A stretch of 64,000 nucleotides of DNA, taken from NCBI GenBank assembly GCA_950295325.1, contig OX485803.1:62509554-62573553 (forward strand), in the 5' to 3' direction. The notes below the pieces were generated by a model that made no database searches, was not told the origin of the DNA, and worked only from the letters and a program-made list of their open reading frames with translations. Within the stretch, counting starts at the first letter, position 1. Each line of letters begins with the position of its first letter. This stretch comes from Polytrichum commune. Taxonomy: Eukaryota > Streptophyta > Polytrichopsida > Polytrichales > Polytrichaceae. A program made the position numbers and the translations under genes. Shown one piece after another: positions 33,012 through 63,399 of this stretch.

Positions 33012-34014
33012 GTATGGGTTGGGGTTTACGGATTTCCGTGAGGAAAGGGCGAGGGCTGGGCTAGCCGCCGGGATAATTTTTATGTAGGAAAATTCCGAAC
33101 GGATCCTGATCCGAAAGACGAATTCCATCCCGGGAATTGCCTGAACCCTAGAGAGCGGAGAGTAATAGAATTCATCCTCCCCATACTTAGTCCGGAAAAG
33201 CCCAAGCAGCTTAGCATTACCATGGCCAACACCCTGTTTGGAGCGATGTCCGGAGTCCAGCCCGTCAATTGGGGTAGGATAATTCAGGAGTATGTGGAGA
33301 AATCTCTCCCCCACATTGGCCGGGAAGTTCCCTGGAGGGACATCGACCTATCGACATTTGAGTTTCCGGAAGCCCCCTTCAAGCGCGTCCAGGAGGAGTT
33401 GACGGAACTCCAGAACCAGTATTTCCGGATGGAGCATATGACTCGCGGGGTGAATCGGGCCTTAGACAACTGTGGACTCGGAAATATCCTCCGGAAATTG
33501 GCCAAGCGGACAGACCAGAAGCAGGTAGAGACCTTAGAGATGGAAAAGGCGCAGCTCGCAGCACAAGTGGCCGCCATGACGCAGGAGCTCACCCAGAAGA
33601 GCGAGGAGATCCGGAAGTACTAGGCGGAACAAGCGGTAGTCCTAAGCCGGGTCTGGGAATTAGTGGGCCATCTGGGAGAAGTCATCAACAAGGCGCACCT
33701 CTACGACCAATTAATGGAGTCAGCGGATTCGTCTTCCGCCCGACAAACGCTCCAGATCCTGGTGAAGTACTCCCGCTCGATGAAGGATCTGCTCAAGGAG
33801 ATCCAGAAGCTCCTGCCTCCGAGTGGTACCCCCAGACGGATGCTCTATCCGGGTCCACCCGGGTCTCCAACGGGCACGCTATATGAGGTTATAGGGGAGG
33901 TAGAGTTAGTTCCGGCCTCTCAGGCGGGTGCGGGGCCCAGTCAACCAACAGGAACTTCCAAGCCACCGGAATCCGGAAAATTTCCGGATCGGGAGAAGAC
34001 TCTTGTTCCTGAAC

Positions 34015-34949
34015 TGTCGCGCACCTCTCCATGAGGAGTGCCCGTAACACCATGGGCACAAGGGGGACCCCGGAGTGACACCCGGGACTTGTGGCGCCAT
34101 TGGTGAGAGGGCCCAAGTACTCTTAGTGTGGGTGAGGGCCCCGGGCGTTGAGAACGCCTCTCACCCACGGGGACTAAGAGTCATGAGGGTAAGGCCATAA
34201 GTTATGAGTAGCTTATGGCGGTGGAATTCTAGAATGCTAAGGAACACCTCAATCGGAGGTGTTAGCTAGGAGATATGGCAATTTGAGTGGGGCGCTGTCC
34301 CGGGACAGCACCCTGGGACAGCAGTGACCTGGGAGTGGTGCCCGGGACTGCCAAGGTTTGAAGAGCCATAACTTCCTCAATACTTGCCCAAATGGGGCAA
34401 GTGAGGGGTCCATCGGCATCTACGCAAAGAGTAGGTGACAATAGAGTGGTTGCTTAATAGCATCAGACATTATATGTAGAAGTTATGGTGGTCTGAAGCT
34501 GCTGGAGGTTCTAGCCCAAACGGCTAAAGGAAAATGTCTACTTGGCCCAACCCTTGTAGAGAGACAAAAGGATACTTGACGGTGGGGTAGGGGCCCCGCC
34601 CAAAGTCCTAGAGGCTTATATGGGTGAGGCGGCTTAGCCGATCGACCCCCCTGGAGCACACTTGGCAATGTGCTCCGGGTAGTTGTAGTGTTGTTTTGGC
34701 AACACGATGATCAACTCAAGAGTGGACTTCCATGGATGGAAGTCCACCTTAGCCATTGGCTACCTACTAAGGGGAGTGTCCCAAATGCATGTGTAGGAGG
34801 GTTTGGTGACCAAGCCATGAGCTTGAAGGTCCGCGGTTTTGGGAGCTAACCATGCATGTGCATGGGATGTGTAGGTTAGCGCTCGTGGCACTTGCTAGGT
34901 TGGAAAGGCGGTCAAGCTAAGTGAAGGAAAACTAGCAAGGGTTGCGACA
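34015..34949 (+). mobile_element. Solo LTR (gypsy family of 55-63 kb) inside the 5-kb element
   Basis: It starts TGTCGCGCACCTCTCCATGA and ends AGCAAGGGTTGCGACA, 935 bp, clearly homologous to the 973-bp LTRs at 55248 and 62427. The target duplication is TGAAC (34010-34014) against CGAAC (34950-34954), with one mismatch. There is no internal sequence, so it is a solo LTR left by unequal recombination. Confidence 0.88.
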
Positions 34950-37248: not shown

Positions 37249-38576
37249 GATTGCTTGGCTTTGTAGATCAATGTGTTTTTCAAATGTTTATGGATTTTTC
37301 ATTCACATTTTCAAAGTTAATGTGTAGTTTTGAATCACTTTCACTTAAATTTATACATGGTAATGAAGCTATGTACTGGATTGTGCTTGTACTCCTTCAT
37401 TTGTTATGATTGTTTACATGTGTTCAAATTGAATTTGGGATGTGAAGGTGTCCAAGTCATGTAGAAAACACATGATTTTGTCTTCTAAAAGCTTACTTAC
37501 AATCTTCTTTTGAGAAAGTAAACTTTGGACATGGAATCCTCTTTGAATCAAGAATTTTGTGAATCCATTGTTGTCAACCACGTGGGTGTACAAAAGGGCA
37601 TTTGATTAAAATTTGACTTACAAAGTATACATATGGGAGGGATGTTGTTCCACCTAGTTTTTTACAAACACTATGAATTATGGGGTAGAGGTAAGTATAC
37701 CCTAGGGGTGCCTGCACACATGTAGCTCCGACTCAAAGAAAAGTCCCCCCCCCTCCCCCAAAACCCCACAACCTTCTACTAGTGAGAATCTTGTTATGGA
37801 GATCATGCTCAATACAAACAAATATACGTAGAATAGATATATATGTGAGAATATGTATTTCCAAATTTGGGCTCTTTCTAGTTCTAGAGGTGGTCAAAAT
37901 CCGGTGACTGAATGATGAGTGTTTCTCAAGTCTCAAGTCTCATAATGTGCTTGGCAACCATTTTTGAAGAACCATGACTTCTTTTGTAGCAAGCTTAAAT
38001 GTATGCCCCTTAAGGTTAAGCTACAAATAAAAGCTTAAGGGGTGATTAAATATATGCAAGAATCTAGCTCTACATTGTATTCATAAAATTTAAGATATAT
38101 AAATAGAAATGTTGGGTCTTGTGGAAGCAAGCATGAATGAAGAGTCTCCTCAATCAAAAGTTATTGGCTTCATGTGGTGGGATACAATACACATTCTACT
38201 TATAGATACAATTGTAGGTAACAAATATACAAAAAATAAAATATTGGGGATGATGAATATTTCTTGAAGGTATGCTACAATATTGAATTTATGAGCAGGC
38301 CCAGTGAGAACAATAAAAAAATGAAGAAACCCTAATATCTAATAACAATGAAGGCGATCACATTGAAATGATAAAATAGATTACAATAAGCAAGTTTCCG
38401 CGTCAAAAAAAAAACGAAAATATACGGTGTCAGTATATTTCAAAATAAATATTCTAATCAATAGAATAGAACCATGCATTAATAAGATTCAATATATATA
38501 TGTAGGAGTATGCACCAAACTTCGTATGAGTATTTTAGAAAGTGAGTTGTATAGTGTTTAGCATTTACTATCACAG
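37249..38576. other. Non-coding AT-rich flank
   Basis: Nothing was recognised apart from a C-rich tract near 37743-37765. Confidence 0.45.
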
Positions 38577-38977
38577 ATGCAAGAGGTAGATCAACATGAG
38601 ACTAATACACAATTGAGTGGAAGAAGGAAGAGACGAAAAATATTGTACTTTACAACAAACAAAGTTCGAGAACGAGCAAGCAGTATGAGGAAAAAATCTA
38701 ATATTGTAATGCAGAAATATATAGATGATTTAGTAGAAACACAAAAGAATATATAGATTTGAATGATTTGGACAAAGAAAGTGAAGAGGCAAGAGAAGAG
38801 ATTGATGGGAATATATACAATAATACTGCGGATAAGATTGGAGTCCACGATTATGGTGAAGAGGAAGAAAATGAGCAAATCAAGATGTATAAAGAAGATG
38901 ACAACAACTCCCCGCACGGAAACGAAGAAGATGAAGATGAAGATGGAGATGGAGATGGAGATAAAATTTATTGTGTA
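38577..38977 (+). pseudogene. Exon-like charged coding fragment
   Basis: A 58-codon frame from ATG 38577 (MQEVDQHETNTQLSGRRKRR... basic, ending in TAG) is followed one frame over by an acidic frame (DLDKESEEAREEIDGN ... NEEDEDEDGDGDGDKIYC) that stops at a GTAAGT donor after 38977. This looks like one exon with a frameshift. It lies 2.6 kb upstream of the plus-strand ParB/methyltransferase-like gene. It could be that gene's upstream exon, but no evidence joins them. Confidence 0.3.
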
Positions 38978-39487
38978 AGTATCTTCTGATCATCTCATAG
39001 AAAATAACACATACTTGACTTAACGCAAATGCTATTGGAGTTGCAATTTGATGAGAGCAATAGTCAGCCAGATGGTTGAGCAAGCGCATTAGTTTGTTGA
39101 AGGTAGATAATTTCATTAAAAAGTTGTTAAGAAGGATCTACGCACACTTGCATAGGAAAGTCTTTTATGTATCCAACCTATGTTATTTTCTGCCTAACCA
39201 CTAGCTCATTAAGGGATAGCACCAGTCAATGCAACCAACCGGATTCGAACCCCGGTTAGTGCAGACCGAAACATCAGTATCTTTAAACTATTCGCATCCA
39301 TAGGTGGATGTCTTAAATAATTTTCCACACAGTTATATTCAATTCGCGAAGGTATATGATCGCTTCTAGCTAGTCTACTATAACCAACGACAAATACGTT
39401 TAAAAGTCCAGAAGGTATTAACAGGACTGCAAATTTCATATCCCTTTCCCGGTGTATGAAAGTAGAAACACGTATGAGGACCGGATA

Positions 39488-40495
39488 GGATATTGGCGGC
39501 ACCGCCAATACCCTATCCGGTATGAGAGTGGAAATATGTAGGAGGGCCCCCAGGGTATTGGCGGTACCACCACAACCCCCCGTATATGATAGTAGATACA
39601 CGTATGAAAGCCCTAGGGGTATTGGCGGTACCCGCCACTATCCTTTTGGGTATGAGAGGGGAAATACGAAGGAGGTCCCGAAGGGTATTGGCGGTGCCGC
39701 CAATACCCCCCGGGTATTAAAATGAAAACATGTATAAAGAACCAACGGTATTGGTGGTGCCCCCAACACCCCCCCCCCCCCGGCCACCGTGGGTATGGAA
39801 ATAGATATACGTATGTGGTCTCACGGGTATTGGCGGCACCGCCAATACCCCTTCGGGTATGAAGGAAAAAATACGTATGTGGTCTAAGGGGTATTGGCAG
39901 CACCGCCAATACCCCCTCGGGTATAAAGGAGGAAATACGTATGGGGTCTAAGGGGTATTGGCGGCACCGCCAATACCCCCTCGGGTATAAAAGAGGAAAT
40001 ACGTATGGGGTCTAAGGGGTGTTGGCGGCACCGCCAATACCCCCTCGGGTATAAAAGAGGAAATACGTATGGGGTCTAAGGGGTGTTGGCGGCACCACCA
40101 ATACCCCTTCGGGTATGAAGGAAAAAATACGTATGTGGTCTAAGGGGTTTGGCGGCACCGCCAATACCCCCTCGGGTATAAAGGAGGAAATACGTATGGG
40201 GTCTAAGGGGTATTGGGGGCACCGCCAATACCCCCTCGGGTATAAAGGAAGAAATACGTATGTGGTCTAAGGGATATTGGCGGCACCGCCAATATCCTCT
40301 TGGGTATGAAAGAGGAAGCACGTACAAGAGTTTGGGAATATTGGCGGTGCCGCCAATACCCCTCAGGGCATGGGAGTGGTAATGCATTAGAAAATACCAA
40401 GGGTATTGGCGGTACCGCTAATGTTCCTAAGGCCTAAAGTTGCGATGTTTATGAAGATATTGGCGGTGCCGCCGATACCATCCGGGTAGGAAACT
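39488..40495. repeat. Minisatellite of hairpin units (62-64 bp period, ~16 units)
   Basis: Each unit carries an inverted repeat GGTATTGGCGG-(CA/TA/TG)-CCGCCAATACC and a spacer of the form CTCGGGTATAAAGGAGGAAA followed by TACGTATGGGGTCTAAGG. I count 16 units between 39.49 and 40.48 kb. Spacing is 64 bp in the most regular part (39955, 40019, 40083). Two isolated hairpins follow at about 40797 (GGTATTGGCGGTGCTGCCAATACC) and 40902. Several units carry changes in both arms. Open frames here arise from the repeat. Confidence 0.92.
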
Positions 40496-40978
40496 GAAAG
40501 TATTTTTGGGTAAGCACTATCCTCATCCAAATGTAAATTTTCATCGAATAAGATTCATTCGTCAAAAATTTCTGATAGACAAGGTAGGGTGGTGGAAGAA
40601 AATATTAGATGTTGCGGGTTGTCGGAAGGTCGGATGCAACAAAGTATGAGGTGATTATCTTCATTTGTGTATGTATGTATTGTGTATTCTGAAAATGCAT
40701 ATAAAAAGTTGTTTTCAAGCTTAAGAACGTGTGTTTGTGATCTGTACAAGTATATGTTATTATAATCTGTATAGATAAATAAATTTGTATTTGAGGGTAT
40801 TGGCGGTGCTGCCAATACCCCTGTATGAACCAAATATTGAAGGACTGAATGCTTTGATAGCATAATGAAGAACCAATTTTACTATGTATTAACAGTATGA
40901 GGATATTGGCGGCACAACCAATATACCAAAGACTATGTGCATGTGTATATTGGTGTGAATATGAGTGTATGAATGTAT

Positions 40979-41054
40979 GTGTTTTTGTGTGTGTGTGTGT
41001 TTGGGTTTGTGTGTGTATATGTATGTTTGTATGTATGTGTGTGTGTGTGTGTTT
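40979..41054 (+). repeat. TG/TATG microsatellite
   Basis: Dense GTGTGT and TATGTATG tracts. The 62-codon frame covering it is low complexity. Confidence 0.85.
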
Positions 41055-41543
41055 GAAATTGGTAGATTTAGATTTTAAGAGGTGAATTTTTTAAATTATT
41101 AAAACACCTTAGATTACGTTGAAAATAAATGAGTGTATACATTTAGATCATTCCAGTAGACATGATTTTTTGTGGAATTTAAAATTTGAATTTTCATTTT
41201 TAGGAATTTTCCAAAGTCTATTGTTTTTGTGGTGTTGAAGATTTGTAATCTAATGTACCCCCTCGGTACATTCTAGAATTTGTTTTATGTAGTGTTTCTT
41301 TCAACTAGGCAACTTTGAAGGTCCATAAAAATTAAAGATTGTGATGAAAAATTAAAAAATAAATACAATCAAATTCATTTTGTTTGGCTCTACTTCTTGT
41401 TCATATAATATTTTTTCATATGAATTCATTTTTTATGTTTAAAAATTTGTTGAACTTCTACATAAGAAGTTGTTTGTTGTTTTCAATTTGGTTGAAGTGA
41501 TCAACAATTTATGTTTTGACAAATTTCTTCATCTTTGTTGCAG

Positions 41544-44500
41544 ATGGAAACAAACGATACTTCAAAGCATTTGGCTTCTGATAACAAGCCAGATGATGAT
41601 TTGTGTGAAGTAACTTCTTCTCATGTGAAAGAAAATGCTATTTTGAGTGATCATTCGTTTGATTCTAACGCAGTGATTTAAAATTTGCAGTTTCAACCTA
41701 CTTCAAAGTCAAGATTTTTCATTCCGTTATGTCGTTTGCTTTTAATGCCTTTGGTTCGACCAACCTTGATGTCAGATGTTCTCAAGTTGGAACATGTATT
41801 TATTCATGGGTATGGATCTGGAAGTGCCATGTTCTATATCTCAGTTGTAAACAATGAAATGAAAACTGAAGATGTGATATCTGAATTGATAAATTTTTAG
41901 AATATACACTGGAAATATGCAAGTGCAAAATTCGATGAGTTTCTAAAAGAAGATATTCTCAACAAATTTATGGACAAGATGTTTTGGATGTGGGATGGGA
42001 ATCATCGTTTGCAAGCATGGAGGTTTGTTATCGATAAGCATTCTTTTGGAGATGCAACTTGGTACATTTCAATGGATTCTATTTTGTTGAATCCATCTCC
42101 TGATGTTGCGGTGTTGTTCACGGCAATGCACGATCTCAATAGGTAAGTTTTTTCCGTATAATTTGTATTTTGTTTTTTCATTTCTTAAGTTTTTAGTTTG
42201 TTTTTCATTCGTTTTTTATATTTTTTATTAAATTCATTTTGGTTGTTTTAGTCATGTTGAACATTCTCATGTGAAAACCAACCTTATGCATCAACTTTAT
42301 CGTGTGCAAGCTATCGGAAATTTACCCATTGAAAACTTCAAAAATCTATTGACACCTGACCAATACAAAAAGTGCACCACAAAGACAATTGTAACGTGGT
42401 ACTCGCTTACATGGGATCTCTTCTTAGATTATTTATATAATGTAAGTTTCATACTACTCTTCGTACTCTTCGTTTTTTCATTAGCTCTCTGGTTTTAATC
42501 GTATTTCTGTGTTTAACTGATTGTGTTATTTGTTCAGCGTGATATTGCTGATGTAGAAGATTTGGCCAAGAAAAAATATTTTGAGGTCACTCAAGAGCAT
42601 GAGAGGTCTGTCGAAGGAGTTACTGAATTTATGAATGTAGCAATAGATGCCAAACGTGTCAAACTAGACTTTAGTCTTGCAAAGCATTTACCCATTGCAA
42701 ATCCCAGTTTGGGACATGGTTTCTTGGCTCAAATCAAACGGCATTATGATTTGTGTTATGAAGAACCTCAAATGAATCAAGAAAAACTCTAGCATCTTAT
42801 GACCTCGAAAGTAGATGCCGCGCAGAAGGTTAAATGGTTGGAGCTGTGGAATTCAAGTCCTGCATTTCGTATGTTTTTGAAATTTCTAAAGACGCCTATT
42901 TCTTACTTGTTTTTTTTTCTTTCAACAGTTGGCTAAAGAAGCTTTTGCTCTCTATGAATCCACAATTTCTGAATTAAACATCACCATCAAGATCGCTCCT
43001 GAAACAATGGAACCTTTGCCACTTTTTGTTGATTATGTTGAATCTTGGAGGGTTACTTGTTGGGAAACGACATTTTTAAAATTGTTCAAATCGAATGACG
43101 GCATTATGAAAAACAAGACTTTTGATAAGCAGCTAGGGGGACTTCAAGCTATGAGGCGGGTTGTTTACATGTATATGTGATATTTGTCTTGACTATATTT
43201 GTTTGGCATTCTTCATTTTTTTTTTAAAAATTGAAATTCTTTTGACTTGAATCTAATTTTTTGGTTTACACAGATACTTTAAGCGTGTATTACTGCCTGC
43301 CAATGTTTTGGATAAGCTACCAACATTTTTTGACAGTTTTAAGGATGTTCAATCGGAGAATTCGATGTTCACTCCTGAAATATGCAAGGATTGGAATGAG
43401 GTCCATTGGTATGAATGCAGATGGTATTTGGATTGTCCTAAGAGTAAAACCCCACATTCCGAATTGGAATTGCGTAATCATCTTGAGCCAGCATTTGTTC
43501 CACCTACAGTGAAGGAAGATTTCCCACGTAGTGCACCCATTAAAGGCAAGAGGAAGAATAATGTTCAAGTGGCCGAACAACCCAAAGACAATGATCCAAT
43601 GAATGATGAACCTTCTGGCAAGAAGCTTAAGGTTTCTAAACCTTCAACTTCATCAAGTACCAACCCTGGTTGTTCTACAATTTTGGAGCCTTTTACTTCT
43701 TTGAGAATCAAGACTAAAGTTTCTCAAACTACACAACGTACTTATGACAATGACTCATTTGAGCTCATTTTGAATGATTTTTTTTTAACATATTGAATGT
43801 CAAAGAAAAAACCGACTCTTGGCCCCAATCTTTTCATGGCATCAATGCATTTCTTACTAAGGTATTTTTTTTTCCCGATTTTTGTAAACTTTATGTTAAA
43901 TAACAAATCCAATTTTGTTTTGCATTTTGCTGCTCAATAATATACTGAATTCTATTGATTGTACTTATGTTGTTCAGGTTGGTGCAAATCGCACATTCTA
44001 CTTTCGAGGTGTTCCAAAGGCAACACCAGCAGTTGATTTGGTTATTGCAGTTATTCCGGAGGGGTTTCCTGTGCCTGGAATTTTAACACTTTCGTTTTCC
44101 ATACCTTCTTGGAATGCAAAATCTGATAAATTTCTTCTTGTTCTTTTTTCATTTTGCATGCAATATCTTCACGACGATAGTGTTTTGTTGATATTTCATC
44201 CTGAAGATCCAAAATGGACGAAAGAATTGTCTATATATTTTTTCAATTACAATTTCAAGGTTGGTCATGGATCTTGGACTTGTGTGAACCCACTTCGTCT
44301 AGCCAATCCTCGCAATCCAAACAAAATGGTTAGTTTCACATCTCTTTTCATCATAATTTATTCTTTTCAATGAATTTTGTTGTTTCTAAATATTATAGTT
44401 TGATTAATTTGTTATTTTACTTATGTTACATTTGTTGTGCAGACCATCAAGTTCACTGCCATCTTGCTTGTACGCTCTTTCAGTGATACTACTCGATTGA

Positions 44501-45379
44501 AACACATGCCTTTGCCTTTTCAAATGAATATTGACAAAGATCTTTCAGAGAACGGTATGAATTTGGATGATGATGTTTTATACAACTTCACGGATGCTAG
44601 TTCTCAACTAATGAGAGATGATGGTATCACACCTTGGAGAGGCCCGCGAAAAAAATATCCATTGTTTTTCCAATGTTTGATTGACGCTTTCTCAAAACCC
44701 GAAGGCATTGTTGCAGACCTCATTGCTGGCACAGGTATAAAACATTTTCTTTTTGCTTTGAAATTATTTTATTACGTCTTTTTTACAAACTAACATGTTC
44801 TCATTTATTTATGTGTTGATAATTGTTTCTTATATCTTTGATAGGACCTTCCATACATGCTTGCCGCGCTTTGAAGCGTCACCTCTTGGCGTTGGAAGGT
44901 GATAAAGATGTTTTTGATTCCGTCTTGAAGCCTTTAATTCTACAATCTCCTTTACCTATTGGCAAAGATATCAATTTTGAAGACTCGGATGATTCTCCAA
45001 TTGTTAACCGTGAGGCCGTCAATTTATTTTGTGAGTAAGTTTTGTTTGTTTATCTTGTTTGAAATCTTCATATGGTTGATTGTATAATTTTTATTTGCAT
45101 TATATTGTATATGCATTTAGTTGGATTATTATGAATACTAACACATTTATGTTGTCATGTGCTAGCAATGTGATACCACAATGTCGCCGACGTTGGCGAC
45201 ATTTTTTTGAAGATCCAAATTTTGTAGCAAGTCCATCACCTCCATGAAGCCTACCTATCTATGCCGAGACCATGATTTCCGTTCTTGCTGCTCAATCTTC
45301 CCCTTCCTCTAACCATAGCAAATCTAAACGATATGATCGTCGGATTTTGGAGTTCATAGATTTAGAGGCCGAATCATAA
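41544..45379 (+). pseudogene. ParB-like / permuted DNA methyltransferase-like gene (nine exons, decayed)
   Basis: Exons by GT-AG and phase: 41544-42142, 42252-42441, 42538-42828, 42929-43170, 43274-43861, 43978-44328, 44443-44734, 44845-45034, 45166-45379; about 985 codons. The ATG directly follows an acceptor (TTTGTTGCAG|ATG), so a 5'UTR intron is likely. Residues about 145-160 read KMFWMWDGNHRLQAWRFVI, the DGNHR signature of ParB/sulfiredoxin-like folds. The C-terminal third has IPSWNAKSDKFL (motif IV region, degenerate), LLIFHPEDPKW, ILLVRS, WRGPRKKYPLFFQCLI and DLIAGTGPSIHACRALKRH with LALEGD (SAM-binding motif I). This is the order of beta-type (N4/N6) DNA methyltransferases. Damage: in-frame TAA at about 41679, TAG at 41898 and 42790, TGA at about 45238, and a -1 shift in a run of nine T (43778-43786). 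The catalytic motif looks lost. Domain names are my reading, not search results. Confidence 0.6.
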
Positions 45380-45920
45380 TCAACATCCATCACTTTAACT
45401 TATACTAATAATTATTTTTTGTAGGCACGTGTTTAACTCTCATATTTACACTTGGTATCAATAATTTACAATACATTAACTTATGATATACCTTGAAGGA
45501 CTTACACATGTTTTGTATCCAACTCTATCTTTTTTGCACTCTCTATATTTATGTTGTATAATGACCAATTACAAAATTTAGTATCATTGCACCATGTTTT
45601 GTTTTATTGTTCAATGTGTTCATATTATGAATATTAATGATCATCATTATCATTGTCCATTCCATTGTCATACGACATGCAATACAACTATGAAAATTTG
45701 TATATGATAAATATATATGCCCCTAGTCGTGTACATATTGGTCTTTTTCGTTGCTCGCTACTCACAATCTAGCATTCGTGTTGTTTGTCTTTCCCAATCT
45801 TCTTATTATTGAACCCTAAAAAATTATTTCTTTAGGCCACGGTTATAGGATACTAGGGGACCTATTACCAAATATTTTGTTTTCTTCACCGCTCACAAAT
45901 TACTGCTCATCGCTCACTGC
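45380..45920. other. Intergenic AT-rich
   Basis: 3' flank of the plus-strand gene. There are short tandem GCTCACTGCTCACCGCTCAC-type repeats at about 45888-45940. No gene was recognised. Confidence 0.5.
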
Positions 45921-46524
45921 TCACTGCTCACCGCTCACAAGATAGCACTCCCCGCCCGGGGGGTTGAGAACGCTCTTCGCCGGGCTGTCGTCAATGAGGA
46001 GTGTGTTCTCCGGAGTGGGCCAATAACCTTGGGGGACCCCCTCCAACATCGGGACGCCCACCCAAAGGTTCTTCCTCAACACCTTAAGGAATTGAGGTCC
46101 GCGGCCTCCTCCGACCTTGGGTACAATCTTGCCGCTACGGTCATAAAGGTCATCGCAGTGTTCTTGACCGAGAAGCAAGCACGGCATTGCGAGTTCTCGG
46201 AAAAGGAAACTGACAACGGCCTTCGTGTTGTCCATCAGCATGGAGCTCCAGATGATGACATGGGCCAAGCCGAGGACCTCACGAAGGAAAGCACCTCAAG
46301 CCGGGCCGGACGTGCACAACCTTCTTGTTAATTAGTGTATCGAAGCGCCCGCCGTAATCCATGTCTTGTGGAGTACGGTAGGGACCCTTGGACGCACTAT
46401 TGGAGATATGTGTGGATTGACAAAGCACGCCATTGAGATCAAATATTATGAAGTTTTTCCTCATGGGCTGGCTTGGTCTTTCGGCGGGGTTGCGACATAT
46501 CTCCGACGGACCCTGTGATGGCAC
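45921..46524 (-). pseudogene. HAD / FCP1-like (NIF domain) phosphatase fragment, frameshifted
   Basis: The first frame has MRKNFIIFDLNGVLC (a DxDGV-type HAD motif I with N replacing the second D) and HVRPGLRCF. After a frameshift near 46283-46290 the other frame continues LREVLGLAHVIIWSSMLMDN (motif II region, WSS), then the HCDDLYDR and LRKNLW regions and NTLLIDDSPAKSVLNPPG (motif III/IV region). This is the layout of small C-terminal-domain phosphatase-like (NIF/TIM50-type) proteins. Motif I is DLNG rather than DxDxT, so catalysis would be doubtful even without the frameshift. It lies between the two ParB/methyltransferase-like genes on the minus strand. No start codon is clear; the Met at about 46464 is the first in frame before the domain. 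Confidence 0.6.
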
Positions 46525-46808
46525 ATACTACCTAGGTGAATGGCACTACCCAGGAAAACCAAATGACAAGCATGCAAAAACGCAACAAAGAAATGCGAGG
46601 CAACAAGTATCCGAAGAACTATCCAGTTCAAAAATTTATATTAATGTGTTTGGTGATATACATTCCGCGAATAATTTACATTGTCACTAAAGGTCTCTCC
46701 TAAGATTAATTGAGCCTACACTAGCAAAATTGGATCCGCCGCCGCGGGCGAAGTCGAGATTCGAACTCGAAAATATGCACACGCCACGAAAGCTGGCTGA
46801 CTGGGAAC

Positions 46809-46940
46809 TTACGGACGCGCGTCCGTAAAGAGGGAGGCATGCTCAAAGGTTGATTACCTCTTCAGCGGTGAGTTCCTCGCCGGCAGTGCCTCCCTCACCA
46901 GGCCCAGTTGCGGGGCCAGGTTCCGGACGCGCGTCCGTAA
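46809..46940. repeat. Palindromic repeats (two copies) at the 3' end of the minus-strand gene
   Basis: Copy 46809-46828 contains TTACGGACGCGCGTCCGTAA (perfect). Copy 46921-46940 is TTCCGGACGCGCGTCCGTAA (one arm changed). The second copy lies within the last exon's open frame and encodes GEFTDARPEP. Confidence 0.92.
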
Positions 46941-48325
46941 ATTCGCCCTGCGTGTCTTCCACCACCAACAAATCGGCTCCACCTGCTTGCGACGCTTGCG
47001 TGCTGACGAAAGGTTGATCCTCATGCGAGGAGTCTTGGCCCCCCCGCATATGTACATCTTCATCGGCGAGGGGGGCGTCGCCGATGTTGACATCTTCATC
47101 GTCTCCTATGGCAGGAGGGGAGGGCTCTGGAGCGGCAGCAACCTAGGGAGGGGGCGGGACAACCAACGCGGGGGCCGTATAGGTGTGCTCCGGTATGTAC
47201 ACCGTGTGGCTGCTAGAAGGAGGGCGCACCAGAACGGGGGGCACGGACATGGCGGGCTCGGGAGCTGCATACACCACCTGGGATTTTGCCTGCAAGTTTG
47301 CCATCATGCTCATGAATTGTTGGCTTTGAGCCAAGAATTGTTGATTTTGAGCCATGAGGTCGGCGTGCCTCCGAGCAGACTCCAACCTAGCTTGCTCCAT
47401 CTCAGCTTGGATGGCGGCCATCTTCCTGGCGTGCTCTTCGTTGGCCTCCCGGAGCCGCATGTCAAGCTCTTCCTTCATCCTCTTCTCCATCTTCTCGTCC
47501 AGCTCGGAGACGGACATGGGCTCTCTCTTCACCTTGCCTGGCTCAGAAGGCAAGGCGGAGATGGAAGCGTACAGCCTCACCTCATCCTCGTCTTCATCTG
47601 AGAGTTCCAAGACGGCGCCTTCGGGGTATTCGTTGTAAGGCGTCTTGTTCCTTTGCCGCCGGCTTGCACGGTAGGAGTCGATATTGGGCCTCGATATCAA
47701 CTCTAGCATATCTCTACCTTCCATGGGCGGGAGTGCCGCCTGCTCACTGGGCTCTCCCCCACCAGAGGACGCCGTGCATCCGGTTTCTGCAGCAAGGTCC
47801 GCATCCCTCTCCGCCATAAGCCTTGCAGCACGAGATGGGCCCGCAGTGGAAGGAAGCCCAACTCGAGAAGTGGGAGTCCCAAAGGGTGATAGACTAGGCG
47901 TATTATGAGGCACCCGAATTGGAGTGACGTTGGGCTGCGCCTCCTCTGCATCCATGTCGTCTTCACCCAGGAGATATGCCACGCGATCCACTGGATGACG
48001 AGCAAGACCGCGCAAGTCTTCCTGCCTGGAGGGTTGTCCCCATGGAGACATTGGATCATCGTCTCCATCGCTGCCCCACCCGCCTGCATGAGAAGGCTCC
48101 TCTCTAGAGGCAAGAGGAACAATAGGATGTGGGGTAATGATATCCAAGAAGTCATTGAGATCCATTTTCTTTGCAAGCTTCCTGTGATCTTTGCACTCAT
48201 CCATGTCGCCAGCCCCCACAAACGAGTTAACATGCAACCCAAGCATCTGCACCAAATAAAAAAAGTTAGTGGATTGTTGGTATCAAGATTGAATTGACGG
48301 GGAAGATGGACATACAAACATGATG

Positions 48326-48525
48326 CAGTGTGCATTTTACGGACGTGCATCCGTAAAATGCACACTGGGTTAGGTTTGATAACTTTACGGCCGCGCGGCC
48401 GTAAATACGCACTGCAGCATGTGTGCCAAATTTACGGCCGCGCGGCCGTAAATATGCACTGCAGCGCAGCCGCAAAGTTGAAATGAACTAGGTGGTTACA
48501 CTTTACGGCCGCGCGGCCGTAAAGT
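48326..48525. repeat. Four palindromic repeats in the second intron
   Basis: 48326-48367 is a 42-bp near-perfect palindrome (arms CAGTGTGCATTTTACGGAyG). 48384-48405, 48431-48452 and 48502-48523 contain the variant core ACGGCCGCGCGGCCGT, in which A/T is replaced by C/G symmetrically in both arms so the palindrome stays perfect. All lie in the intron 48247-48565. Confidence 0.93.
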
Positions 48526-49950
48526 TGCATCATGTGGAGGCATGAAAGTTTTTTTAAGTACTTACCAATGCCGCATAAACAAATTTGGTCCCCCCGAAGA
48601 CGTTGTACACTGTCTCACTCATCACAGTCACAGCCTTCAATACTCCTATGTAAAAGTCCATTCGGAGCTCGGTTGCCGGGCAGATTGCGAACATCGCCTC
48701 GTCCATTAGCTCCTTGGGGTGTGGAGGCGGTAACTGGTAAATTTTCTTGAACACGCTCTTCGCCTTTACAGGCAAACGCCCACTTGGTGAAGACTTCCGT
48801 GTCAAGAAATAGAGACATATAGCGCCGACCTACTTTACCCCCCTTGCTTCTTCGACGACGGCGATGCCTTCCGTCTTCGCGGGGACATATGTGCTGTGGA
48901 AGATATTGTATTCGAGATCCATCGTCGAGTTGTATAGGTCGACGACCGCTGCGGATCTCTCTTGGTCCACAATCCACAGCCACACGTTTGGCTCCAGAAG
49001 TGCATGGGACCGAAAGCTCTTGAAAGCTTTCAGGAAGCTGTCGTAGAAAGGGGTCCCCGGAGGAGGTTGTTTCCAAGAATTTGGAAATGCACGGAAATCA
49101 AAGATAGCAAAAGGACAACCCCGGGGGTCATCTCTCACAGTGACCCGCGAAGCATAGGTGTCACACTTGCCGAACTTCAATATTTGTGATGTCACAGCGC
49201 AAAACCTCGCGACACCCTCGAATTTGGCATTCTTCTTTCTATCGAGGAAGTCTTTATACAAAGTTGTCTCCCTTTCGTCGATAGAACCTTTCTTCTTGTT
49301 CTTCCTTGAGCGCTGGGCCAAGAACGAAGATGTTGCTCTTATCAATGCCTTCATTGAGACGCCATTGATGTGGTATGCTATTTTCAATCCCCTCCAGTTG
49401 TCCCACACAATGTCACCATCTGCATCTGTAAGGTTGTAGGCGGGTACCAATTTGCCTATCTCCCTCATAGCCAATGTCTTCTTCTTCCTGTATTCGCACC
49501 ATTCCTTAATATGGTACGTTGAAGGCTTCATAAACCTTGGTCGTTTGAGGAAGATTTTTGGATACGGCGCTGTCCTTCTCGGAGTCTCCTTAAGAAGGTG
49601 TTCTGCCGCCTTGTAAAGCTCGGCATCGAGCAACCCTTGGAAGGGACGGAAGAACTCTCTGAGGATTGGAGGCACCTTAATCTTCAGGTCCTCTTTGTAC
49701 TTCTTCTCCGTCTCAAGGTTGATGAGTTCTCCGTTGCTGTGTGCATGGAAGACGCACATCCAGATAGCCCAGGTCCTATCCGACAAAGTGATGAGCTTCA
49801 GTTCGCCCTTCAGATCTTGCACTGTCTTCATGCCGCTTTGCTTCATGTCAATGCTTGAGAACTTCGTCACAATCGCACTGCTGAATGCCTGCAAGTAGAA
49901 AAACAAATGAGTTGTTGAAATGAGATCAAAAAATGGAATGAGAACAGTCT

Positions 49951-50026
49951 AGTTTACGGACGCGCGTCCGTAAACTTGGAGCACAAAAAGAGTGAAGGAG
50001 AATTTACGGACGCGCGTCCGTAAATT
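49951..50026. repeat. Two palindromic repeats in the first coding intron
   Basis: 49951-49976 is AG + TTTACGGACGCG/CGCGTCCGTAAA-type palindrome + CT. 50001-50026 is the same core flanked by AA and TT. Both are perfect palindromes of 26 bp within intron 49889-50042. Confidence 0.93.
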
Positions 50027-51373
50027 CATTTGGGAATATTACCTGCCATTTGGGATTCTTGACGACTGCGTTGTCCCTCTCTTTTGGTGGACAGCCGTGC
50101 TCCTCCCACAAGGTCCTACCAGCCACGATGTTGGCTGCCCATGACGCCTCAAACGCTTTGATTTTGTTTGTCTGGTTGAGGAAGGCAGATATGGCGATGA
50201 GCTGATTGGAGTCCTCTGAATGCACGAGAAGTGCCTTCCAATATCGGATTGTGGGTTTCAGAGGGCTCTTCCAATTATTGTCTGCGAGGAGAGCTTTTGC
50301 CGCTTCCACGCTATGCTAGCCGTCCACGATGTAGAATTCCCATTGCTTAATAATTGGCCAATGTTCTGCTGTGACCTCCACGATTGGATCCTTTGGGGTC
50401 ACACATATGGTCTGCCGGTCAGCTTTCGGGTTGTTCATGATATTGTTCATCTGCCACCAGACCCCGCTCTCTTCTTGCACCCGAGTATTCATACTCTCGA
50501 TGCCCTGGTGGCATTTATAAACATCCATGTCAAATGTGAAATACCTGCCCATTGGCCAGCAGGCTTTCGTTTTTTCGTCGAACTTTTGTTGAATTTTTGT
50601 TGATAGATCAGAGTTCGGGCGTTCTCCTTTCTTCAAAAGTGGTGCGACAGTAAGGGTGGAGCTGACATCTGGACCTTCGGTAAGTCCAGATGACTCCATC
50701 TGTGAATGGGAGCGTTTACTGGATGGTCTGCTCCCTCTCGATGCTCCACTTTGAGACGGTCTTGATCCTTCCGGGACTGTCTGTGGAACACGCGGTTGTC
50801 GTTCATAAACGACTTTCTTCTTCCCTTTCCCCTTTCTGGACTCCAGGACTGCCCCATTCACTCTCGTGACATTGTTGAGGAGTCTTCCAAGTCGCTTACC
50901 CATCCAAGGTGCATTGCATGCATAGTCTTGGAATTCAGTTGCCAGATTGAAGCAACCCGCATCCGGGCTGCCATTTTCGCATTCAGCCTTGTGGAATGGA
51001 TGTCTGTGCTCATGAAGAATAATTGTGACTCTGTCATCTTGTTTTTCAAGATCTATGACGACATAGTCACCTTGGGCCACTGCACACTCTACTGACCAAT
51101 TTTTAACTCTAATCCATTTATCTACATCTATATCTTTCGTCTTCATTTGATACCCAAATCTAAGTACGAATGTGTCATTCTCAAGTTTCTCTACGTAAAC
51201 TGTCCAGTTGTCTACTGTGTCTTCGACTGGCTTGTAGTGATCGTTGTGGCTTATATCTTTGATGGCGGGTGGAAGTGGAGGCGGAAGAAACTCAAATGCA
51301 TGGTCAATTGCAGGTCTTTTTGTAGATGCCATCTGCAAATGCAAAAACAATGCTTAGCATCATGATCAATGTC

Positions 51374-51903
51374 AAGTTTACGGACGCGCGTCCGTAAACT
51401 TTCCACAGGTTGTGTTGAATTATAGTGTCAGAATGAACTATCCGAAAAGATTTTGCATATGTCAATACGAAATTTCACATGTAGTTTACGGACGCGCGTC
51501 CGTAAACTATCAACGGGTAGTTGGGGATGAGAATCTCAACTATGAACAAAGATAAGATTTAATAAGAAAGTTCTAGTTTACGAATGCACGTCCGTAAACT
51601 AGTAGTTGGGTTTACGGGGTTAGCACTAATTTACGGACGTGCGTCCGGAAACTAGGAATGGGGTTTACTTGGATGTCACTAGTTTACGGACGCGCGTCCG
51701 TAAACTAGGAGTGGGGTTTACTTGGATGTCACTAGTTTACGGACGCGCGTCCATAAACTAGGAAAATATACTGTCCATTAGTAATAATGTTGTTTTTTAA
51801 ATATATCCAGAACTTACGGACGCGCGTCCGTAAGTTCTGGATATATGTTGCATGCTTCACCCACCTGGTGCGTCAAAGTTTACAAACGCGCGTCCGTAAA
51901 CTT
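51374..51903. repeat. Cluster of eight palindromic repeats upstream of the ATG
   Basis: Copies are at 51374-51401, 51482-51509, 51573-51602, 51630-51651, 51679-51708, 51732-51761, 51801-51846 and 51876-51903. The core is TACGGACGCGCGTCCGTA. The copy at 51801-51846 is a perfect 46-bp palindrome beginning ATATATCCAGAACTTACGG. A few copies have single-arm substitutions (51573 has GAATGCACGTCC; 51732 has CCATAA). They lie 40-570 bp upstream of the ATG, probably in a 5'UTR intron. Confidence 0.93.
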
Positions 51904-52019
51904 CAAGCCCTACATTGGTTAATCTGGTCCTTGTTGAGAGGGTTCTGGAATTTCAGGAAGGTGGTTTTGTATTTCCCAAGGATCTGCAGAATGCAATTGC
52001 AGTGTTCTAGAAATCTTTC

Positions 52020-52970
52020 ATGATGCATATGATGCAAAATACAAGCAAACCAGCAAAGAACAAAAAAAACCAAGCAATCAAACAATCCAGCAATCAAACA
52101 ATCAAACCAGCAAGTAAAAAAGCAAGAAATAAACTAAAACACAATCAAACAAGCAATCTATGTACTTATGCAAGAGGCCAGCAAGTAAACAAGCAACCAC
52201 GCCAGCAAGTAAAGCAAAGCAAAGCAGCAAGCACAAGCAAATCAAACAACTGTAAGCAAGCAAACACACAAGCAAAAGAGAGAAAAAACAATCACAAGCA
52301 AGCACATAAATAAAAGATAAAAAAACAATCACAAGTAAGCACAAGCAAGCACAACCAGCTAGCAAGCACAAACAATGACACAAGCAGCAGGCAATCAAAC
52401 AATTAAACAAGCAAGTAAAAGCAAGAAATTAACTAAAACACAATCAAACAAGCAACCTATGTCATTATGCAAGAGGCCAGCAATCAAACAAGCAACCAAG
52501 CCAGCACAACAAAGCACAAGCAAGCACAACCAGCAAGCACAAGCAAAGAAAAGCAAAGCAAATCAGCAAAGCAAAGTAAAGCACAAGCAAAGAAAACACA
52601 AGCAAAGCAAAGCAAAGCACAAGCACAAAGCAAAGCAAAGCAAACCAGCAAGCACAAGAACAAACACAAACACAAACAACAAACAACCTTGTGAGGTGAC
52701 CAGGAGCGCCAATAGCAAAAGGAGCAACGCCACCAGCAAGAGGAGCGCGGAGAGCAAGAGGAGCGCCAACAGCAAGAGGAGAGCAAGAGGAGAGCAAGAG
52801 GTACGCCAACAGCAAGAGGAGAGGAGCGCGGAGAGAAGCGCCAACAACAAAAGGAACGCAGGGAGGAGAGGGTTTAGGGTGACAACAACAAACCCTAGAG
52901 AAGCAAGAGAGGAGCGTGAGAAGAATGTGAGGAAGGAGAGCGAGAGAGGGGAGGCGGAGAAATGAGAGGG
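52020..52970. repeat. AGCAA-rich low-complexity tract and purine-rich leader
   Basis: About 52025-52680 is dominated by irregular (A)AGCAA/CAAGC repeats. About 52700-52850 has repeats of the AGCAAGAGGAGCGC type. On the minus strand these are pyrimidine-rich (TTGCT, CTCCTC), consistent with a plant 5' leader. The 196- to 199-codon frames here are low complexity and are not called as genes. Confidence 0.75.
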
Positions 52971-53080
52971 TGAAAATGGGCGAATGAAACCCTAAAACCC
53001 TTAAGTACTCAAGAGGAGCCCCCCAAACGCCCCGACTCCCAACGTCCCATCCACCCCGCACCACATCGCCACGTGGCAGA
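52880..53080 (-). promoter_or_regulatory. Probable promoter/leader of the minus-strand ParB-like gene
   Basis: Minus-strand order from 53080: G-box CACGTG (53072-53077), then GAGTACTTAAGGG (TATA-like) with TTTTAGGGTTTC near 52986-53008, then pyrimidine-rich sequence with CTAGGGTTTGTTG (telo-box) at about 52885-52900. This arrangement is typical of plant core promoters followed by a CT-rich leader. The link to the gene 1.5 kb downstream (51332) requires an intron across the palindrome cluster and is inferred. Confidence 0.4.
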
Positions 53081-53099
53081 ACCCTATAGGTTCATATTG

Positions 53100-53990
53100 G
53101 AGAGGTATGTGGCACACCTCTCCTTCTTTAGTAAGACACGTTTGGAAATTACAAAAAATGTCGTATTATCCACATGTTGTCTTCTCGTTAATATGACAAA
53201 CGCTGTAAAATTGTCGTACTATTGAGCGAATAAAAAAACAAAAGAAATATGAGCTTCAAAACACACACAACGGATGTAAGCAATTATTATATATATTGTA
53301 TGAAATAATAACGTATAACTTCAAACAAATAGAAGCGTTCTCAATAATTATTAAAATAAGAGTTCAGTGATCTGAGTCTAGTGTTGCCTACCTAAGTGAA
53401 ACAAGTTGTCTAATAAAAAATTAGACAACAATGATGCATAACGTTGACGCTTTAATATTGTACGTGAAAAAACATCATCCAAATGAACCAAATGCAAATT
53501 AACATTAAAATCAAAGCCTTCTGCATTATTGATTTCCAAAACGGCATCCACCAACTCAACAACCATTATACACACTTCTTGCTCAATATCATATGCATAT
53601 AAGTATTAGTTGACATGTCACCATCATCCAGTCGCAACATCCAATTACACTAAATATCACTAACCCTATGAAAGTAAGGTACTTTTAACTGTGAACTCAA
53701 ACACTAAATTTCAACTATTAATGGTAATAAATGGAAGTGACATATAATGTGTACCATTAATTATATGATTAAAATTTAACAATGACAAAAGGAGAAGGGA
53801 CATGGTAGTAACATAGCATGTAAGATACAAATTGTAAAAACATAGCACCAGTGACAATTGGGTTCTGCACCTTGTACTCGAATATAGTCTTTGTTTAAAA
53901 TAATCTCTTGAAACCCTTATTTTCATTAAATAGTGGCAGACTTTTGGTCTGAAACCTAAATATCACCCTTATTTCATTTTTTCCATGTTC
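53100..53990. other. Non-coding, nothing recognised
   Basis: AT-rich; only short frames without motifs. Confidence 0.5.
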
Positions 53991-54095: not shown

Positions 54096-54222
54096 ATGAG
54101 GGTTTCTCTCTCCAAGCTTAAGAAACTAAAATGTCTTCTTACAAAGCTTAAGAAACTCTGAAATTCACACACAAGAGTCAAGCTATCTCTCACTCCACGA
54201 AGGGAGAATCCAAGAATGCAAG

Positions 54223-55195
54223 TGTCGCGCACCTCTCCATGAGGAGTGGCCGAAACACCATGGGCACAAGGGGGACCCCGGAGTGACACCCGGGACTTGT
54301 GGCGCCGTTGGTGAGAGGGCCCAAGTGATCCTAGTGTGGGTGAGGGCCCCGGGCGTTGGGAACGCCTCCCACCCACGAAGATTAGGAGGCACAAGGGTAA
54401 GGCCATGAGTTATGCGTAGCTCATGGCGTGGTGATTCTAGAAAGCTCAAGAACACCTCAATCGGAGGTGTGAGCTAGGAGTTATGGCCATTTGAGTGGGG
54501 CGCTGTCCCGGGACAGCGCCCTGCTACAGCAGTGCCTGGGAGTGATTCCCGGGACTGCCAAGGTTCAAACAGGCATAACTTCCTCAAGACTTGCTCAAAT
54601 GGAGCAAGTGAGGAGTCCATCGGCATCTACGTAAAGCGTAGATGAACATGGAGTGGTTGGTTGTTATGATCAGACATCATACAAGGAAGTTATGATGGTC
54701 TGAAGCTGCTGGCGGGGTTCTAGGCCCAGCAGCTAAAGGAAAATGTCCACTTGGCCCCAACTCTTGGTAGAGAGACAAGAGGTTGGTTGACGGTGGGGTA
54801 GGGGCCCCGCGTGAAGTCCTAGAGGCTTATATGGGTGAGGTGGTGTGGCCTCACCCACCCGAGACCGAACGGCAAGGCCTCCATGGGCTTTGGCCTATTG
54901 TGAGGCCATAGTTGCCTAGTATGGTTCGGGTTGTTGTAGTGTTGCTCCGGCAACGCGATGATCAACATAGGATTGGACTTCCATGGATGGAAGTCCACAT
55001 TGGGGAAATGGGTTACTGATTAAGGGATGAGTCCCGAAAGCAAAGTAGGAAGGTTGGTTCCCTCCTATGAACTATTGGTCCGGGGTAAGAGGAGCTATCC
55101 ATTAGCATGGCGGAATGCGAAGGGTTAGCGCTCGTAACCTTTGCTAGAAATGAAAATTGGCAAGATTATTAAGGGACCTAGCAAGGGTTGCGAGA
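54223..55195 (+). mobile_element. Solo LTR with GCAAG target duplication
   Basis: It is 973 bp, beginning TGTCGCGCACCTCTCCATGA and ending GGGTTGCGAGA (the terminal CA is mutated to GA). Target duplication GCAAG is at 54218-54222 and 55196-55200. It is closely related to the LTRs of the adjacent complete element but carries more differences from them than they do from each other. Confidence 0.88.
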
Positions 55196-55247
55196 GCAAG
55201 TGGTGGAGAAAGAATGCAAAGACTTTACTCATAATCTACTACACCAT

Positions 55248-56220
55248 TGTCGCGCACCTCTCCATGAGGAGTGGCCGAAACACCATGGGCACAAGGGGGA
55301 CCCCGGAGTGACACCCGGGACTTGTGGCGCCGTTGGTGAGAGGGCCCAAGTGATCCTAGTGTGGGTGAGGGCCCCGGGCGTTGGGAACGCCTCCCACCCA
55401 CAAAGACTAGGAGGCATGAGGGTGAGGCCATGAGCTATGCGTAGCTCATGGCGTAGTGATTCTAGAATGCTCAAGAACACCTCAATCGGAGGTGTGAGCT
55501 AGGAGTTATGGCCATTTGAGTGGGGCGCTGTCCCAGGACAGCGCCCTGCTACAGCAGTGCCTGGGAGTGATTCCCGGGACTGCCAAGGTTCAAACAGGCA
55601 TAACTTCCTCAAGACTTGCCCGAATGGGGCAACTGAGGAGTCCATCGGCATCTACGTGAAGCGTAGATGAAGATGGAGTGGTTGGTTGCTGGAATAAGAC
55701 ATCATACAAGGAAGTTATGATGGTCTGAAGCTGCTGGGGGCTTCTAGGCCCAGCGGCTAAGGGGAAATGTCCACTTGGCCCCAACTCTTGGTAGAGAGAC
55801 AAGAGGTTGGTTGACGGTGGGGTAGGGGCCCCGCGTAGAGTCCTAGAGGCTTATATGGGTGAGGTGGTGTGGCCTCACCCACCCGAGGCCGAACGGCACG
55901 GCCTCCATGGGCTTTGGCCCATTGTGAGGCCATAGTTGCCTAGCATGGTTCGGGTTGTTGTAGTGTTGCTCCGGCAACGCGATGATCAACATAAGATTGG
56001 ACTTCCATGGATGGAAGTCCACATCTAAGGATAGGTTACCGATTAAAGGGGTGTGTCCCGAAAGCAAAGTAGGAGGGTTGGTTCCCTCCTATGAACTATT
56101 GGTCCGGGGTAAGAGGAGCTATCCATTAGCATGGCGGAATGCGAATGGTTAGCGCTCGTAACCTTTGCTAGAAACGAAAATTGGCAAGATTGTCAAGGGG
56201 GGCTAGCAAGGGTTGCGACA
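55248..56220 (+). repeat. 5' LTR
   Basis: TGTCGCGCAC...GGTTGCGACA, with TG/CA ends. It contains a TTATATGGG stretch that may serve as TATA element. Confidence 0.9.
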
Positions 56221-57932: not shown

Positions 57933-58874
57933 TGTCGCGACCCTTGCTAGTTTTTCTCCACTTAGCTCAATTGCTTTCCAACTCTAGCAAGTGTCCCGAG
58001 CGCTAACCTGCACATCCCACGCACATGCATGGTTAGCTCCCAAAACCGCGGACCTTCAATCCCATATTTGGTCACCAAACCCTCCTACACATGCATTCGG
58101 GACTCTTTCCCCTTAGTAGGTAACCCATCGCTAAGGTGGACTTCCATCCATGGAAGTCCACTCCCTACTTGGTCATAGTGTTGCTAGGACAACACTACAA
58201 CCACCCGGAGCACATTGCCAAGTATGCTCCGGGGGGGGGTCGGTCGGCAAAGCCGCCTCACCCATATAAGCCTCTAGGACTTTTGGCGGGGCCCCTCCCC
58301 CACCGTCAACATCCCTTTTGTCTCTCTACCAAGAGTTGGGGCCAAGTAGACATTTTCCCTTAGCCGCTGGGTCTAGAAGCCTCCCTGCAGCTTCAGACCT
58401 TCATAACTTCCACGTGCGGTCTCTGAATCTAACAACCAACCACTCTATCGTCATCTACATTTCACGTAGATCCCTATGGACACCTCACTTGCCCTATTCG
58501 GGCAAGTATTGAGGAAGTTATGCCTGTTTAAACCTTTGCAGTCCCGGGAGCCACTCCCAGGCCCCTGCTGTTCCAGGGCGCTGTCCCGGGACAGCATCCC
58601 ACTCAAAGTGCCATATCTCCTAGCTCACACCTCAGATTGAGGTGTTCTTTAGCATTCTAGAATCGGGACGCCATAAGCTACTCATAGCTTATGGCTTTAC
58701 CCTCATGACTCCTAGTCTTTGTGGGTGGGAGGCGTTCTAAACGCCCGGGGCCCTCACCCACCTTAGGATCACTTGGTCCCTCTCACCAATGGCGTCACAA
58801 GTCCCGGGTGTCACTCCGGGGTCCCCCTTGTGCCCATGGTGTTGCGGGCACTCCTCATGGAGAGGTGCGCGACA
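57933..58874 (-). mobile_element. Inverted LTR inside the complete element
   Basis: Reverse complement of the family LTR (minus strand TGTCGCGCACCTCTCCATGA at 58874 to TTGCGACA at 57933), 942 bp. It is linked to a PBS and a short internal piece on its downstream side, so it is a truncated element rather than a plain solo LTR. It separates the RT remnant (ending 57694) from the RNase H part (58890 on). Confidence 0.88.
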
Positions 58875-62426: not shown

Positions 62427-63399
62427 TGTCGCGCACCTCTCCATGAGGAGTGGCCGAAACACCATGGGCAGAAGGGGGACCCCGGAGTGACACCCGGGAC
62501 TTGTGGCGCCGTTGGTGAGAGGGCCCAAGTGATCCTAGTGTGGGTGAGGGCCCCGGGCGTTGGGAACGCCTCCCACCCACAAAGACTAGGAGGCATGAGG
62601 GTGAGGCCATGAGCTATGCGTAGCTCATGGCGTAGTGATTCTAGAATGCTCAAGAACACCTCAATCGGAGGTGTGAGCTAGGAGTTATGGCCATTTGAGT
62701 GGGGCGCTGTCCCAGGACAGCGCCCTGCTACAGCAGTGCCTGGGAGTGATTCCCGGGACTGCCAAGGTTCAAACAGGCATAACTTCCTCAAGACTTGCCC
62801 GAATGGGGCAACTGAGGAGTCCATCGGCATCTACGTGAAGCGTAGATGAAGATGGAGTGGTTGGTTGCTGGAATAAGACATCATACAAGGAAGTTATGAT
62901 GGTCTGAAGCTGCTGGGGGCTTCTAGGCCCAGCGGCTAAGGGGAAATGTCCACTTGGCCCCAACTCTTGGTAGAGAGACAAGAGGTTGGTTGACGGTGGG
63001 GTAGGGGCCCCGCGTAGAGTCCTAGAGGCTTATATGGGTGAGGTGGTGTGGCCTCACCCACCCGAGGCCGAACGGCACGGCCTCCATGGGCTTTGGCCCA
63101 TTGTGAGGCCATAGTTGCCTAGCATGGTTCGGGTTGTTGTAGTGTTGCTCCGGCAACGCGATGATCAACATAAGATTGGACTTCCATGGATGGAAGTCCA
63201 CATCTAAGGATAGGTTACCGATTAAAGGGGTGTGTCCCGAAAGCAAAGTAGGAGGGTTGGTTCCCTCCTATGAACTATTGGTCCGGGGTAAGAGGAGCTA
63301 TCCATTAGCATGGCGGAATGCGAATGGTTAGCGCTCGTAACCTTTGCTAGAAACGAAAATTGGCAAGATTGTCAAGGGGGGCTAGCAAGGGTTGCGACA
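62427..63399 (+). repeat. 3' LTR
   Basis: 973 bp, same termini as the 5' LTR and nearly identical to it, followed directly by the ACCAT target duplication. Confidence 0.9.

Follow-up and report, generated by a model that had tools for sequence, protein, structure and literature searches.

Broken accessory genes of two adjoining DNA transposons in Polytrichum commune, one of them linked to palindrome arrays

The locus and its two transposon fragments

We analysed a stretch of 64,000 nucleotides of Polytrichum commune (assembly GCA_950295325.1, contig OX485803.1, positions 62,509,554 to 62,573,553 of the forward strand), here called the window, in which positions are counted from the first letter. 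Two convergent genes, named plus and minus gene according to their strands, carry a ParB-like motif together with methyltransferase-like motifs. An earlier note on this DNA had described them as two diverged paralogues side by side in a plant nuclear genome. Both are broken copies of accessory genes of two different DNA transposons that adjoin. One is part of a Mutator-like element (MULE), the other of a transposon of about 17 kb which carries a DUF7869 open reading frame (ORF) and has 4-bp target-site duplications (TSDs). The genome searched for further copies comprised 407.8 Mb in 64 contigs. The elements and genes are as follows (Srx, sulfiredoxin).

38305..45953, plus strand: MULE copy, left-truncated; matches L033-L036 up to the common right end ...GCTCACAAGATAGCACTCCCC at 45953
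41544..45036, plus strand: MULE accessory gene (plus gene), from ORFs and translation; eight exon pieces in a model read by GT..AG
41991..42020, plus strand: WDGNHRLQAW, the ParB/Srx-like motif of the plus protein, from the sequence
43984..45035, plus strand: permuted N6/N4 methyltransferase-like region; AVIPEG at the motif IV position, then motif I, DLIAGTG...HLLALEGD
45954..53988, minus strand: fragment of the ~17 kb DUF7869 transposon, truncated at both ends, beginning one base past the MULE end
45954..46527, minus strand: remnant of a NIF/FCP1-like phosphatase gene, frame-shifted and cut by the MULE junction
46843..48246, minus strand: minus gene exon 3; MLGLHVNSFVGAGD, followed by a tail that is acidic/low-complexity and coiled-coil-like; an in-frame stop precedes the terminal stop
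48566..49888, minus strand: minus gene exon 2; conserved region which ends in YNVFGGTKFVYAAL; one in-frame stop
50043..51332, minus strand: minus gene exon 1; N-terminal beta domain and ParB/Srx domain with [IV]DGQHS; one in-frame stop

The MULE was delimited by two copies, E34 and E35, which extend further left and have both ends. They are 9.6 and 13.2 kb long and are flanked by the 10-bp TSDs GCATTAGGGG and GGTATGCGAC. Mutator-like elements have TSDs of 8-11 bp, and the 10 bp present in 2/2 copies agree with this. The strand opposite the plus gene contains long ORFs with a SWIM finger (E 0.004) and DUF6208 (E 0.0015), both below cut-off; a MULE transposase domain was not matched in these ORFs at E 0.1 or better. 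The plus gene itself is repeated: among the best 40 of 62 genome candidates scored, those other than the window are 68-96% identical, some of them partial and one copy in two pieces. In the window copy the gene model has four in-frame stops. An array of ~64-bp repeats lies inside the MULE fragment (39450-40600) and gives repeated self-matches against copies L033, L035 and L036. Left of a MULE copy a 1084-aa open frame was seen (L037, E34:3541-6792, minus strand), which by eye resembles a hAT transposase.

Copies of the DUF7869 element (L009-L018) align to the window fragment mostly at 92-98% and extend beyond both of its sides where read. Six right-end stretches were fetched; three of these contained the right end, each with a 4-bp TSD (3/3). 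Full elements measure 17001, 16861 and 16887 bp, with the TSDs AAAG, ATTA and CAAA, and their termini are AACACTATATTCG...CGAATATAGTGTT. The DUF7869 ORF (E 2.2e-38) is on the opposite strand to the minus gene in the same element. The CACTA-like terminus had suggested a classical CACTA element. CACTA/EnSpm transposons have TSDs of 3 bp, and this candidate was rejected because of the 4-bp TSDs and the DUF7869 ORF. PF02992 (Transposase_21) did not match in the two element ORFs tested, where DUF7869 or nothing credible was found instead; in the genome it had 150 scored matches. Sola elements have TSDs of 4 bp, a size with which the DUF7869 element agrees. The phosphatase gene is a further accessory gene of this element: in copy L010 it is open, with a 260-aa frame that matches PF03031 (E 1.9e-13).

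At the junction the right end of the MULE (45953) is followed at 45954 by the other element, starting inside the phosphatase gene and running to 53988, where the copies read continue. The window lacks that part of the DUF7869 element which would lie to the left of the junction. In the simplest reading the MULE inserted into the phosphatase gene, and subsequently left sides were lost or the region was rearranged, which would explain why two decayed copies adjoin. The two genes are convergent because one element joins a fragment of the other. A further right terminus of the GAATATAGTGTT type is located beside a MULE copy at L033:560-700; thus, elements of the two types are found side by side at more than one place. 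Elsewhere in the window, at 34012-34629, 54217-55074, 55246-56098, 58253-58874 (minus strand) and 62427-63277, there are repeats that share 87-96% identity with a stretch close to copy L012 (L023:4272-5128).

Could the two genes nevertheless be ancient host paralogues? They are intron-containing ORFs with a similar order of motifs. Against this, each gene is highly repeated, with ~40 or more genome matches, and the two sit in transposons of different types, each of which has its own ends and target duplications. Homology was detected at DGxH alone: hhalign aligned the plus DGNHR segment and the minus DGQHS region over 12 columns (probability 3.2%) and, between the methyltransferase parts, nothing (0.1%). 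Homology of the two genes was therefore rejected, and a pair of host genes is refuted for these copies.

The two accessory proteins

The letters that the earlier note had read from the window were all recovered. WDGNHRLQAW is located in the plus ORF 41901-42146, and DLIAGTG and GPSIHACRALKRHLLALEGD flank the 44733/44847 join. In the minus gene the DG-stop-HS is at the end of the ORF 51353-50316, and VYNVFGGTKFVYAAL is followed by LGLHVNSFVGAGD across the next intron. The exon joins of the minus gene, too, look real. GT/AG of both introns were intact in all 14 fetched copies, except for one donor in L013, and protein P0001 (contig of 2686 bp) is continuous over the exon 1/exon 2 join. With exon 2 DNA the best 40 of 293 genome candidates scored were the window itself, 26 copies at 96-98% and 13 copies at 75-77% identity, i.e. 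a young and a second subfamily.

Possibly the minus gene is captured or hitch-hiking DNA without a function for the element. A stop, frameshift, truncation or rearrangement affects an exon in 11 of the 14 fetched copies, and Ka/Ks within the young subfamily is 0.33-1.11, as such a gene might show. Between subfamilies, however, Ka/Ks is 0.08-0.14 for exon 1, 0.13-0.15 for exon 2 and 0.26-0.29 for exon 3 (pairs with frame problems, i.e. L022 exon 3 and L019 exons 1 and 3, were omitted), and the values of 0.08-0.15 in exons 1 and 2 argue for constraint. In addition, relatives from other sources which are 33-45% identical retain the same residues. We consider a passenger without function very unlikely.

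The earlier note had proposed a ParB/Srx fold for both proteins. For the minus protein the proposal stands at the level of prediction: AF2 and fold searches assign a ParB/Srx fold to the DGQHS segment, and these models support an N-terminal beta domain followed by a ParB/Srx domain. AF2 of full-length P0001 from 3 sequences had a pLDDT of 33.9. The signature of the ParB/sulfiredoxin superfamily is GERR / DGxHR with a conserved arginine. This arginine is missing in the minus protein, which has DGQHS in P0001, P0003-P0007 and the aligned genome copies (a stop in the window). In the plus protein a ParB/Srx fold at DGNHR is a possibility; this segment gave the short match to the minus region, and the motif varies among copies (DGNHR, DGNHC, DGNDH, NGNHN).

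The suggested permuted N6/N4 methyltransferase also held for one gene. The C-terminal part of the plus protein matched PF01555 (motif I / C-terminal half) in 3/3 copies with a best E of 1.8e-5, the member shown having 20.8 bits, under the curated cut-off of 26.7. Further matches were phrog_3008 (E 1.3e-4) and DpnA in the PDB (5hek; E 0.0021). The plus protein thus has a motif I of beta-class N6/N4 methyltransferases, DLxAGTG, as a remnant, and the link between ParB and methylase drawn in the earlier note is supported. FGGTKF as motif I of the minus protein found no profile support: there was no methyltransferase match in Pfam, NCBIfam, PHROGs or PDB sequences, and PDB sequence searches with minus profiles returned nothing relevant. 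A search over 5752 candidates gave no homologue of the plus protein with an E of 0.01 or better.

In beta-class enzymes the catalytic motif IV is (D/N/S)PP(Y/F/W). The block that the earlier note had placed before motif I in both proteins as resembling the motif IV region is non-canonical in each. For the plus protein the alignment comprised the window and eleven loci; after removal of three gapped rows nine remained, which represent seven of 8 distinct copies (L026/L033 and L028/L035 are the same places; L030 is missing). The plus motif is AVIPE (AVIPEG, window), DIPE, NIPE or DMPE (DIPEG, NIPEG, DMPEG) in all seven. Because it is non-canonical in every plus copy read, catalysis by the plus protein is doubtful. 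The minus protein has FDFR at this position in the genome copies shown, one FYFR (L020), and LDFR in P0002. Its region after the ParB/Srx domain appears to keep a methyltransferase-like order of motifs without a canonical catalytic motif.

These residues bear on whether the proteins are active N6A/N4C DNA methyltransferases which bind and methylate their own transposon. This has been proposed for the Ectocarpus transposon Sola1-1_Ec32 of 21.5 kb, which has a 1104-aa ParB plus N4C/N6A methyltransferase accessory gene opposite its transposase; the part of the paper available to us proposes that transposon-borne ParB-methyltransferases bind and modify their own element, and names no recognition site (PMC12477816). 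The precedent has the same arrangement of strands, and the plus motif I region matches N6/N4 methylases. With motif IV non-canonical in both proteins (7/7 distinct plus copies read; FDFR, FYFR and LDFR in minus) and the minus protein lacking a methyltransferase profile match, active methylation is improbable here. By description, Sola1-1_Ec32 and the DUF7869 element are both giant DNA transposons of similar size with a ParB-like accessory protein opposite the transposase. They differ in three respects: in the present proteins catalysis by the methyltransferase part looks lost or unproven, the gene comes together with a palindrome array, and a gene with similar motifs is also found in a MULE. 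Similar ParB-methyltransferase proteins in green and red algal transposons are cited in the same available part (PMC12477816). They belong to another host group and another type of element. Iyer in 2011 and Petroll in 2025 are said to have described them.

Palindrome arrays of the DUF7869 element

Allowing up to three substitutions, the pattern TTACGG(A/C)CGCGCG(T/G)CCGTAA occurs at 11 sites in the window, and 11/11 are inside 45954-53988. The pattern search placed them as follows (no strand is assigned).

51374..51903: upstream array, five palindromes (51378, 51486, 51684, 51814, 51880)
49951..50027: intron 1, two palindromes (49954, 50004)
48384..48525: intron 2, three palindromes (48385, 48432, 48503; C/G variant)
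46809..46828: 3' flank of the minus gene, one palindrome

In 15 related, non-independent copies including the window there are 101 sites, located upstream, in both introns and 3', and 0/101 in coding exons. L024, the one right half examined, has seven more sites, six of them upstream of long ORFs; the remaining one, L024:5246, lies just past a stop that separates two long open frames, in an intron by our reading. Two MULE copies contained no palindrome of this type, and a search of the MULE for palindromes of its own yielded one common 16-mer and no recurrent 10-mer. Genome-wide, 878 exact 22-mers were counted, versus 0 with the reversed control. Among the distinct sites listed (50, all on contig C1), 49/50 have a listed gene copy within 10 kb, compared with 0.42% of random C1 positions; the site at 25983578 is far from any listed copy and that at 30506057 overlaps a listed exon match at its extreme edge. 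The palindrome is identical in both subfamilies, in which the gene is 76-77% identical and DNA alignments break at the introns. The palindromes thus form arrays which are linked to the minus gene.

Read-through peptides hint at palindromes in more distant relatives, too. LRPRGRK, which the palindrome encodes in one of its frames, is present in the tail of P0002. In P0005-P0007 the tails, judged from peptides alone, suggest TTTGGGTCGNNCGACCCAAA at the same intron, and those of P0003-P0007 together suggest that other palindromes occupy it. The enrichment was modest: windows able to encode at least 9/10 palindrome pairs numbered 18/157 in tails versus 12/391 in exons, perfect ones 5 versus 1 (LRPRGRK of P0002 is above the size limit of this test and was not counted).

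As to individual sites, 51801-51846 is a 46-bp perfect palindrome. The flanks of the sites are unlike one another yet symmetric within several sites, which suggests a local copying process. Outside the DUF7869 element, further perfect palindromes with a TCCCGGGA core are at 848, 5233 and 54498. Our literature searches brought up no palindrome array described together with a ParB-methyltransferase gene; no search by palindrome name was made and subscription papers were mostly outside their scope.

A possible ParB/parS-like pair in a transposon

A ParB-fold protein is linked to a palindrome array and both are kept between subfamilies; therefore, a cis-trans pair of the two is our best guess. The minus protein would bind the arrays of 22-bp palindromes that its own element carries within its genes and upstream of them, much as ParB does at parS. 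The bound protein would mark the element DNA and in this way control expression, silencing or transposition. We put at about 50% the reading in which both genes are transposon accessory genes and the minus protein is a site-specific DNA-binding factor acting on its own palindromes. The plus protein plausibly has a related job for the MULE, though no such palindrome array was found there.

The location of the palindromes also bears on a different assignment, in which they are bound by the DUF7869 transposase and excision or replication is aided by the ParB-like protein, acting as an NTP-dependent nickase or nuclease. Sites bound by a transposase have an analogue in the TnpA/TnpD sites of En/Spm. 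Palindromes that precede the DUF7869 ORF, as well as the site at L024:5246, which lies between the two long open frames of this ORF, would fit this, whereas sites in the introns of the ParB-like gene and upstream of it, rather than near the element ends alone, would not be expected. As for the enzyme, the ParB-methylase Bce_0392 of Bacillus cereus nicks DNA, and a DNase function is assumed for DdrB-like ParB domains, for which an arginine is described (PMC5512222, as far as the accessible part goes). By our alignment this arginine is the serine of DGQHS, which speaks against such an enzyme. Taken together, we hold this assignment of the palindromes and the protein to be rather unlikely.

The same source, in the portion available to us, also covers ParB-methylases of bacteria and ParB domains of phages (PMC5512222). 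ParB proteins of chromosome and plasmid partition bind CTP and parS-like sites and have ParA as a partner; of these features, the minus gene has a palindrome array as a candidate for the site. The DGQHS of the minus protein stands against GERR in bacterial ParB/Noc (7bm8, 7ng0, 7bnk) and sulfiredoxin, and a helix-turn-helix was not identified in it. TnpA of En/Spm is an example of an accessory protein that acts on the transposon encoding it. A VANDAL protein, according to the part accessible, controls its own silencing (PMC12730594). By description, the minus protein would join these two as an accessory protein; the sites of the DUF7869 element differ in being long palindromes, located within introns and upstream of genes.

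Tentatively, and with clearly less confidence than in the binding of palindromes, we consider it possible that in a eukaryotic transposon a ParB-fold protein and its palindromes form a ParB/parS-like pair, the methyltransferase partner domain of the protein having decayed to a non-catalytic module. Each element would have ~12-18 cognate palindromes, upstream of and within genes, with palindrome and protein changing together in distant relatives. By marking the DNA of the element, the pair would serve self-recognition or escape from silencing. With hundreds of exact copies of a candidate site tied to a ParB-like gene, the binding target of such proteins is directly testable. This is a hint that a bacterial DNA-marking fold has been reused by transposons, along with a methyltransferase part whose catalytic activity may be lost.

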